The notes beneath the pieces are model-generated. The model saw only the letters and a program-made list of their open reading frames with translations, did no database searches and was not told the DNA's origin. Below are positions 20,864 through 23,631 of a stretch of 64,000 bases of DNA, one piece after another. Source of the DNA: an uncultured Pelagibacteraceae bacterium (GTDB taxonomy: Bacteria > Pseudomonadota > Alphaproteobacteria > Pelagibacterales > Pelagibacteraceae); contig CACJQQ010000001.1 in NCBI GenBank assembly GCA_902595625.1, positions 62,001-126,000 on the forward strand, given 5' to 3'. How positions within the stretch are numbered: position 1 is the first letter of the stretch; every line of letters starts with the position of its first letter. The translations under genes were made by a program, and so were the position numbers.

Positions 20864-21013
20864 TCAATTCTTTCTTCTAATTTTTTTAATTCCACAATCT
20901 TTACATTTTATCGTTTCAGTTGAACCTCCCGGCCCAAAACTATAGCTAATATCCACTTTTTCGTATCTGTGAATTCCAATCTTACAAAATAGTAAATACA
21001 ACCGCCTAATCAT
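20864..21013 (-). CDS. Small 49-aa putative zinc-ribbon-like protein
   Basis: MIRRLYLLFCKIGIHRYEKVDISYSFGPGGSTETIKCKDCGIKKIRRKN*; CxxxxH plus CxxC spacing. Below the length cutoff of the ORF track. Confidence 0.5.
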   Translation of the reverse strand: MIRRLYLLFCKIGIHRYEKVDISYSFGPGGSTETIKCKDCGIKKIRRKN

Positions 21014-21059
21014 AATTTTAACAAAAAAAAAAATTAACGTTAATTATGGAGGTAATTTA

Positions 21060-21116
21060 ATGTCTGGCTGGGAAATACTTGCAGTTGTAGTTATTTTATA
21101 CGCTTTAATAAATTAG
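21060..21116 (+). CDS. 18-aa hydrophobic micro-ORF
   Basis: GGAGG (21048..21052), 7-nt spacer, then ATG: MSGWEILAVVVILYALIN*. Confidence 0.5.
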   Translation: MSGWEILAVVVILYALIN

Positions 21117-21241
21117 TAAATAAAATTAAAGTTTAATAAGAAATCTTTTTTCTAAATCTTAATTAACAGAAGATTTACACAATAATCCTTTACACTTTTT
21201 AGGTTAATATAATTATGTTATATATTTTTAAAGGAGATTCG

Positions 21242-21292
21242 ATGGCAATAATAATAATCGGGATAATTGTATTATACACCGCAACTACTTAA
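21242..21292 (+). CDS. 16-aa hydrophobic micro-ORF
   Basis: AAAGGAGATTCG upstream of ATG: MAIIIIGIIVLYTATT*. Confidence 0.48.
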   Translation: MAIIIIGIIVLYTATT

Positions 21293-21297
21293 TTTAA

Positions 21298-23631
21298 TTA
21301 AGTAAATTTCGGGTTTCTTTTATAATTGAGAAACCCGAAAAAAAACAACAGTAGAAGAGCAGCTGGATAAACAATTATCTTATTGGGTCTATCAGGGTTT
21401 TCTATTTTAAAATTACTAATGATATCTCCCATTTGTATTCCAGATTTTTTTGCCTCCCCTTTCCAATTTAATTTATCTACAGTGAGTTGGTCATTCTGAT
21501 CTACTAATGACACTCCATATTCTTCTAGGTTGAACTTATTTTCAAATTTTCCTTTTTCAATAACAAATAGTTTGTATCTTTCTCCGTATTCTGTAACTCG
21601 TGTGACCTTTATGTGAACTTCTTTTGAAGGGTCAAAAGATAAATTTTGAATACTTTCTGCTGAAAGTTTTTGTTCGTTAAATTTTGGATAGAATTTACCC
21701 AAAACAAAGTCTGGTGCTAAAAAAGATAAAGAAATAATTAAAAATGCTATGGTCTCATACCATCTTAATTTGTTGATGAACCATTGTTGTGTAGCTGCCG
21801 TAAAAACTAATATTCCAATTAATGAAGTGGCTATAACTAATAAAGCTTGCCAGATACTATCTACGCCAATTAATAAAAGTTCATGATTAAATAGAAAAAC
21901 AATGGGTAAAATGCCTGTTCTTAAACTGTACCAAATAGCTTGAAGTCCTGTTCTTAATGGATCGCCACCTGAAATTGCAGCCGCTGCATAAGATGCTAAA
22001 CCCACAGGCGGTGTTACATCGGCCATTAAACCAAAGTAAAATACAAATAAGTGCACAGCTATCAAAGGGAAAATAAAGCCCGAGGCATTTCCAACATCAA
22101 CTAAAACTGTCGCCATTAGTGAAGCCACTACTACATAGTTAGCAGTTGTAGGTAGACCCATTCCAAGTAGTAAACATAAAATAATAGTTAATAAAATTAA
22201 TATGATTACATTATCTCGTGCTATCGTCTCTATAACTATAATCAAATTAGTGCTAAGCCCCGTAGATCCTACCGCTCCTACTATTATACCTGCGGTGGCA
22301 ATCGCTATTCCTACTCCAACCATATTTATTGCACCTTTTTGAAGACCTACAATTGTCTGATTCCACCATTCGATAAGACCAATTTTATAATCTGAGTTTT
22401 TAATAATACGATTTATCAAATTCACTAAGATCAAAGAAATCGTTGCATAAAAAATTGAAAAACCTGCCGTATATCTCATATAAACAAGTAGAAAAATTAA
22501 AACAAAAATTGGTATCAAAAAATGTAATCCAGACAAAAAAGTTCTCTTTAAGTGAGGAACGTCTGCATCGTCCATTCCTTTGAGCCCTAATTTAAGAGCT
22601 TCCAAATGAGATATATAAAATAAAGCAATATATGAAATAATAGCTGGTAAAAAAGCATGTTTAACAACTTCAAAATAGGTAACACCGATAAAACTCGCCA
22701 TAACAAAAGCAGCAGCTCCCATTACCGGCGGCATAATTTGTCCGTTTACAGATGATGAAACTTCAATTGCTCCAGCTTTCTCTTGAGAGAAACCAGTTTT
22801 TTTCATTATAGGAATTGTAAAAGTTCCTGTTGTAACTGTATTAGCTATTGAAGAGCCTGAAATCATACCTGTCATTCCGGATCCTAAAATAGCAGCTTTA
22901 GCTGGCCCTCCTCGCATCTTACCAACCATTGCAAAAGCTAAATCTAAAAAATATTTTCCCCCACCTGCAGTTTCTAATAATGCTCCAAAAAGAACAAATA
23001 AAAATATAAAATCAACAGAAACACCTATTGGTATTCCAAAAATAGCTTCTTGATCAAACCATTGAAATCCTACTAATCTTTTTACAGAGAGGCCCCCGTG
23101 GGAAATAATATCTGGAGCGTATTTTCCAAAATAAGAAAATAAAAGGAAGCAAATTGCAATTATGACCAAAGGCAATCCGATTGCTCTTCTTGTTGCCTCT
23201 AAAAGGATTAAAATACCTGTTGCCCCAATAATGAGCTCTACTGGAACTTTAAATCCAAATATCTCTTTAACTAAAAGTATTCCGCCCCGATTAACAAGAT
23301 CATCGTAAAAAAAATAAATATATAAACAGCAAAAAGCAGCAACTAAACTTATAAGAATATCAAAAACTGATATTTTCTTTCCTCTGACAACAGGAAATAT
23401 TAAAAATGTTAGTGTTAATGCAAAACCTAAATGTATAGCTCTAGCAGGTAGACCTTTGAACATTCCAAAGTTAAACCAAAAAGGAAAAGGAGAAGCATAC
23501 CAAAGTTGAAATAATGTCCAAAGAATAGCTATCCCAAAAACTATTTTTAAATGTACACCTGATAAATTTCGAGTAGGAGAAATATCTTCTTGAATTTTGT
23601 CTTTAATCTTGCTTTGAATAGTTTGATTCAT
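21298..23631 (-). CDS. TRAP transporter fused permease (TAXI type) with C-terminal DUF3394-like domain
   Basis: 777 aa, multi-TM; GSGMTGMISGSSIANTVTTGTFTIP, NGQIMPPVMGAAAFVMA, GMGLPTTANYVV motifs. Confidence 0.93.
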   Translation of the reverse strand: MNQTIQSKIKDKIQEDISPTRNLSGVHLKIVFGIAILWTLFQLWYASPFPFWFNFGMFKGLPARAIHLGFALTLTFLIFPVVRGKKISVFDILISLVAAFCCLYIYFFYDDLVNRGGILLVKEIFGFKVPVELIIGATGILILLEATRRAIGLPLVIIAICFLLFSYFGKYAPDIISHGGLSVKRLVGFQWFDQEAIFGIPIGVSVDFIFLFVLFGALLETAGGGKYFLDLAFAMVGKMRGGPAKAAILGSGMTGMISGSSIANTVTTGTFTIPIMKKTGFSQEKAGAIEVSSSVNGQIMPPVMGAAAFVMASFIGVTYFEVVKHAFLPAIISYIALFYISHLEALKLGLKGMDDADVPHLKRTFLSGLHFLIPIFVLIFLLVYMRYTAGFSIFYATISLILVNLINRIIKNSDYKIGLIEWWNQTIVGLQKGAINMVGVGIAIATAGIIVGAVGSTGLSTNLIIVIETIARDNVIILILLTIILCLLLGMGLPTTANYVVVASLMATVLVDVGNASGFIFPLIAVHLFVFYFGLMADVTPPVGLASYAAAAISGGDPLRTGLQAIWYSLRTGILPIVFLFNHELLLIGVDSIWQALLVIATSLIGILVFTAATQQWFINKLRWYETIAFLIISLSFLAPDFVLGKFYPKFNEQKLSAESIQNLSFDPSKEVHIKVTRVTEYGERYKLFVIEKGKFENKFNLEEYGVSLVDQNDQLTVDKLNWKGEAKKSGIQMGDIISNFKIENPDRPNKIIVYPAALLLLFFFGFLNYKRNPKFT

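Follow-up and report, generated by a model that had tools for sequence, protein, structure and literature searches.

The window, as the whole 64,000-nucleotide stretch of uncultured Pelagibacteraceae DNA analysed here is called, harbours a gene of 18 codons (ORF1) which, judged from the comparison of related genomes, is a genuine member of a conserved protein-coding micro-gene family found across SAR11. The same comparison establishes its coding selection, its accessory status, its mobility and its presence as one copy per genome. With about even confidence, ORF1 may be regarded as a translated, selected and self-contained micro-gene, whose product would be a single-pass membrane microprotein of the mobile accessory genome that acts via an N-terminal motif on a membrane partner. 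The wider picture, proposed with middling confidence, is that of a SAR11 gene for an 18-residue membrane peptide, equipped with a promoter and a Shine-Dalgarno (SD) sequence of its own. It would be kept as a single copy in each genome, relocate in the form of a ∼135-bp cassette among sites that include ssrA and tRNA-Ser, and occasionally give rise to tandem series of hydrophobic micro-ORFs that then diverge, ORF2 being one example. The features concerned are the following:

20864..21013, minus strand: 49-aa Zn-ribbon-like gene (CxxC pair plus an upstream C/H), divergent from ORF1 and kept in 14 relatives
21048..21052, plus strand: SD sequence GGAGG of ORF1, 7 nt before the ATG at 21060
21060..21116 (stop included), plus strand: ORF1, 18-aa micro-gene MSGWEILAVVVILYALIN of the MSG-x-EI family, TRAP-locus class, assigned from its sequence, homologues and in-frame pN/pS
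21208..21213, plus strand: exact TATAAT, putative -10 element of ORF2, which would give a leader of ∼22 nt; spacing similar to that of the TATAAT of ssrA-class ORF1 genes
21230..21236, plus strand: SD sequence AAAGGAG of ORF2, 5 nt before the ATG at 21242; resembles AAAGGAGTCGAA-ATG of the ssrA-cassette class
21242..21292 (stop included), plus strand: ORF2, 16-aa hydrophobic micro-ORF MAIIIIGIIVLYTATT, putative tandem partner of ORF1
21298..23631, minus strand: TAXI-TRAP fused permease gene (DctM + DUF3394; TIGR02123), convergent to ORF2
21307..21340, minus strand: very stable 12-bp hairpin (z = -5.0) within the last codons (3' end) of the TRAP permease gene, a possible minus-strand terminator

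The initial annotation had described two tandem, SD-led hydrophobic micro-ORFs at this place, and both were found where it had put them: tiny, single-TM and preceded by real ribosome-binding sites. The 7-nt spacing of ORF1 and the distance of 125 nt between the two plus-strand ORFs were given correctly, whereas the spacer of ORF2 is 5 nt and not 6. The contrast of strands also holds, as all gene-sized ORFs between 18522 and 26015 lie on the minus strand. When hydrophobic micro-ORFs were defined by a mean Kyte-Doolittle value of at least 1.8, an ATG start and an upstream SD, ORF1 and ORF2 proved to be the only ones in 140 kb of the contig, and first-order Markov simulation with the regional composition led to a chance expectation of 0.005 such ORFs per kb, or 0.003 in the 620-bp region. 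The occurrence of the pair is therefore not incidental, as had been suspected from its strong SD sites. The search of the intergenic region against Rfam gave no credible match.

As for the neighbouring genes, the Zn-ribbon-like gene has no match in Pfam or NCBIfam, and the hairpin at 21307-21340 was not scored as a standard terminator by a terminator scan. The segment 20736-20851 matches positions 21365-21480, in the 3' part of the permease gene, at 73% identity and in the same orientation, and is probably a decayed partial duplication.

Alignment of orthologous gaps revealed that ORF1 and the stretch 5' of it are conserved between the Zn-ribbon-like and TRAP genes, with ORF1 changing at third positions and keeping a constant length. 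Of 169 genus genomes, 34 showed this arrangement when searched with an exact degenerate pattern (GGRGGTAAT before ATGTC); the peptides encoded at the TRAP locus are MSGWEILIVVAILYAIVN and near variants, with 18 codons in each of the 30 loci read (30/30). The Zn-ribbon gene abuts the TRAP gene in G025, G027, G007 and G001, the micro-gene being absent from that gap, and in G007 and G027 a copy of the family is present at another locus instead. With an 18-column profile, homologues were identified in 76 of 396 Pelagibacteraceae genomes and in 4 of 14 genera, exactly one per genome; since the assemblies are for the most part incomplete, and many derive from single cells, the absence counts only bound presence from below.

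Members of the family are near-constant in length (17-20 residues) and are preceded by an SD at every locus inspected. The count of 104/104 obtained by the locus-collecting script arises by construction, as the script demanded an SD; three loci that it had missed, found with the profile, carry an SD as well. The family consensus reads MSG(W/L)EILxVVAIIYAIxN. Among 55 distinct peptides, M1, S2, G3 and E5 are invariant, I6 is found in 53 and V9 in 54, although the invariance of the strongest positions is partly a matter of ascertainment because the first matches of the profile went into building it. Position 4 is occupied by W, L, F, V or I, Y14 is common, and the C-terminal half is freely hydrophobic, with positions 15-18 variable.

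The initial annotation had proposed to check the micro-ORFs by, among other things, their conservation in relatives and a bias towards synonymous substitutions. For ORF1, the ATG, the SD, the frame and the length are strongly kept, and the substitutions in aligned relatives bear the mark of frame-specific purifying selection: pN/pS is 0.24 in frame, compared with 0.92 and 1.68 in the other plus-strand frames and 1.16, 0.54 and 1.66 on the minus strand, where the frames over ORF1 are interrupted by stops in most or all sequences. The codon-position entropies are 0.76, 0.52 and 1.19. Ser2 is encoded by TCN in 31 and by AGY in 21 of 52 sequences, and, since a switch between these codon types requires two base changes while the residue is retained, this speaks for selection on the residue. 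A stop at codon 4 was found in one of the 76 family copies (G167).

These data leave little room for ORF1 being a leader peptide, or a non-coding RNA with an accidental ORF, as a very short ORF close to conserved non-coding DNA might suggest. Both frame-specific selection and the serine codon switch speak against it. Moreover, the role of a leader peptide, which had been considered at the outset, is unsupported because the gene downstream of the pair is convergent and no downstream gene is constant across loci. This reading of ORF1 is thus largely refuted and seems extremely improbable.

Members of 20 residues, the length taken in the profile-library searches (the window peptide has 18 aa), gave no match over the cut-off in Pfam, NCBIfam, PADLOC or PHROG, and a pattern search of the viral collection IMG/VR yielded no real phage copy of ORF1. 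Among the matches listed for a broad pattern search of GTDB, the convincing 17-20-aa ORFs all belong to Pelagibacteraceae/Pelagibacterales, including G411; those in other taxa were rejected as unrelated or out-of-context frames.

The ORF1 family occupies more than 20 genomic contexts, as determined by neighbour clustering. Class a is the Zn-ribbon/TRAP gap, including the copy in the window, for which a promoter scan of this class identified no plus-strand promoter. Some class-a relatives (L045, L062 and others) have, around ORF1 position -30, minus-strand elements resembling CTGACA/TATAAT that extend over the SD and the ORF1 start codon and are a possible promoter of the Zn-ribbon gene. Class b comprises the ssrA-associated genes, with an exact TATAAT at ∼-29 in 12 of 12 and a leader of ∼16 nt, ACGAAAGGAGTCGAA-ATGAGC. 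A conserved hairpin downstream of the class-b ORF1 was considered as a terminator or a new RNA motif, and both were rejected: it is the 3' end of ssrA, the permuted alphaproteobacterial tmRNA gene. Class c lies directly 3' of tRNA-Ser or adjoins a C40-peptidase gene.

Among the 169 genus genomes, 142 have copies of the ssrA 3' end, for the most part grouped on a single strand; the cassettes in between contain accessory genes, among them genes for small secreted proteins and DNA-methylase-like genes. At three loci (L099/G095, L110/G153, L112/G472), a pair of directly repeated ssrA 3' ends encloses a ∼135-bp cassette that has ORF1 as its sole gene and holds just a TATAAT box, an SD and ORF1, while in G130 a different micro-ORF, MEFILIILILVAANS, fills a cassette of 124 bp; such micro-ORF-only cassettes between two ssrA 3' ends measure 124-136 bp. 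The window copy of ORF1 is not flanked by ssrA repeats and resides in the Zn-ribbon/TRAP gap. Integron-like arrays were also observed downstream of ssrA at G098:C1:138944-144550 (L184) and at many other places (e.g. L185-L203), with up to 8 one-strand direct repeats of the tmRNA 3' end (GGGGCACCTGGCAACAGAACGCCCC) and cassettes of 0.1-5 kb between them. Repeated tRNA 3' ends separate cassettes in the additive flexible islands of streamlined aquatic bacteria, as at the tRNA-Lys of Methylopumilus (PMC10872708), and ssrA islands are known from Dehalococcoides (PMC3146451). The SAR11 loci resemble both in having direct repeats of tRNA/tmRNA 3' ends between inserted cassettes, but differ in that the cassettes go down to 124-136 bp with a single gene of 15-18 residues.

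The case of ORF2 is different. The search with its DNA in 168 genus genomes detected no relative at the locus or elsewhere, matches outside its own genome being just AT-rich chance ones. Hence, of the two micro-ORFs proposed as real, ORF1 is strongly backed by conservation, whereas ORF2 leans on tandem cases in other genomes. Its SD context (AAAGGAG-ATTCG-ATG) resembles that of class b. Tandem hydrophobic micro-ORFs accompany ORF1 in G009, G173, G183, G168 and G394, and G411 (L135, reverse strand, 1490-2320) carries five SD-led micro-ORFs of 17-20 residues in tandem after tRNA-Ser, two of which, ∼132 bp apart, are identical in protein sequence. This recurrence supports ORF2, which is probably a fast-diverging tandem partner of the ORF1 type. 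In 1.14 Mb of SAR11 DNA, a redundant sample largely chosen around ORF1-type loci, SD-led hydrophobic micro-ORFs outside larger ORFs fall in four settings only: the ORF1 family, its tandem neighbours, ssrA cassettes, and a 22-residue family after the C40 gene. The last is a separate conserved micro-ORF, MHWILLGIAIGLIFYLGDKYLF, at the 3' end of the C40/NlpC-P60 peptidase gene in genus g9 (L075, L103, L106, L117, L123, L127 and others), with a putative longer relative near L191:1000.

A toxin or a phage-related peptide would likewise agree with the tandem neighbours and the mobility. The initial annotation had proposed Ibs/TisB-like toxins, and ORF1 could accordingly be an Ibs/ShoB/TisB-style type I toxin-like membrane peptide which, together with an RNA antitoxin, stabilises a mobile cassette. 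ORF1 is indeed a small hydrophobic single-TM peptide, matching IbsC in size and hydrophobicity, and its family is tandemly duplicated, mobile and patchy in occurrence. Like ORF1, the Ibs/ShoB peptides of E. coli are intergenic single-TM hydrophobic peptides of 15-26 residues with tandem copies. IbsC has 19 aa, 10 hydrophobic residues suffice for it, and its N terminus is dispensable while the C terminus is needed (PMC8309996); ORF1 is the opposite, being conserved at the N terminus (SG-x-E invariant), and is also acidic. An antisense TATAAT is conserved at no offset in classes b and c, in a test that covers sigma-70-like -10 elements only and counts exact matches, 5/6 matches with jitter being uninformative in AT-rich DNA. 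The leader of ORF1, put at ∼16-22 nt from the TATAAT position, is unstructured (folding z ∼-0.6; -0.18 for ORF1 of the window), so that with ∼16 nt there would be no room for the usual translational control, and the strong SD is exposed. The single copy per genome departs from Ibs/ShoB too. A classical toxin of this type is therefore distinctly unlikely.

Alternatively, ORF1 might be an island-borne phage-resistance peptide, blocking the entry or lysis of SAR11 phages at the membrane in the manner of superinfection exclusion. Its residence beside tRNA-Ser and in variable ssrA arrays with DNA-methylase-like and accessory genes, its patchy distribution and the tandem diversification agree with such a role. 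On the other hand, the PADLOC, PHROG and IMG/VR searches described above were negative, and a constant N-terminal sequence is unlike an arms race, making this explanation rather unlikely. The possibility that ORF1 acts at the Tat translocase as a mimic of the TatB/TatA N-terminal TM helix is suggested by the likeness of SAR11 TatB, MPQIGWLEILAIVIVAILVLGPK, to the family peptides MSGLEILAVVAVIYLLVK or MSGWEILIVVAILYAIVN; in the genomes of family f2, the best matches to the ORF1 profile are TatA N termini. These matches, however, have E values of ∼0.01-0.1 per genome, as a hydrophobic profile may yield by chance; TatC occurs in genomes with and without ORF1, Tat being near-universal; and ORF1 ends after the TM segment, lacking the FG/GP hinge and the amphipathic helix of TatA/B. 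Such mimicry seems very unlikely. Membership of ORF1 in the TatA/TatB family (PF02416) itself was rejected, as the hinge and amphipathic helix are absent and the genome's own members lie elsewhere.

The preferred reading is the accessory membrane microprotein. Of what the initial annotation had envisaged, an accessory role in a membrane complex is retained in it. The adjacent TRAP transporter is not a constant partner, because ORF1 lies elsewhere in other genomes. The peptide would be made at a substantial level from a very short leader, and the initiator methionine would be lost to leave the serine of position 2 at the N terminus. The 13-residue hydrophobic stretch may then insert in the inner membrane, the freely varying C-terminal half serving as an anchor, while the invariant N-terminal SG-x-E-I would attach to a resident protein or complex of the membrane, modulating its activity. 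ORF2 would most likely be a peptide of like kind placed in tandem, comparable to the rows of two to five such ORFs in other genomes. Against the membrane reading it must be said that a stretch of ∼13 residues is short for a bilayer, and against a docking partner, that ORF1 has no constant gene neighbour across loci.

KdpF, CydX, AcrZ and MgtS are single-TM accessory microproteins that occur together with, or are otherwise linked to, a known complex. The proposed mechanism would have ORF1, like them, dock through one specific face of a short TM helix, but it is shorter and without a constant neighbour. The intergenic hydrophobic microproteins of Enterobacteriaceae likewise are encoded by tiny ORFs under purifying selection, though hydrophobicity alone follows from AT content (PMC11188072). 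ORF1 shares with them its small size, hydrophobicity, intergenic position and purifying selection; unlike that set, it represents one 18-aa family traceable over genera, loci and mobile cassettes.

SAR11 is among the most abundant bacterial groups of the ocean, and its genomes are very streamlined. A gene of 18 codons that persists, relocates and is under protein-level selection in such genomes should therefore do something useful. ORFs of this size are skipped by standard gene callers, and no curated family of Pfam, NCBIfam, PADLOC or PHROGs matched those ORF1 members long enough for search. The cassettes of additive islands can, as seen here, carry a micro-protein alone, and the ORF1 family makes a clear-cut test case of how small a functional mobile gene can be. 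If the proposed reading is true, ORF1 would rank among the smallest protein genes known to be selected independently.
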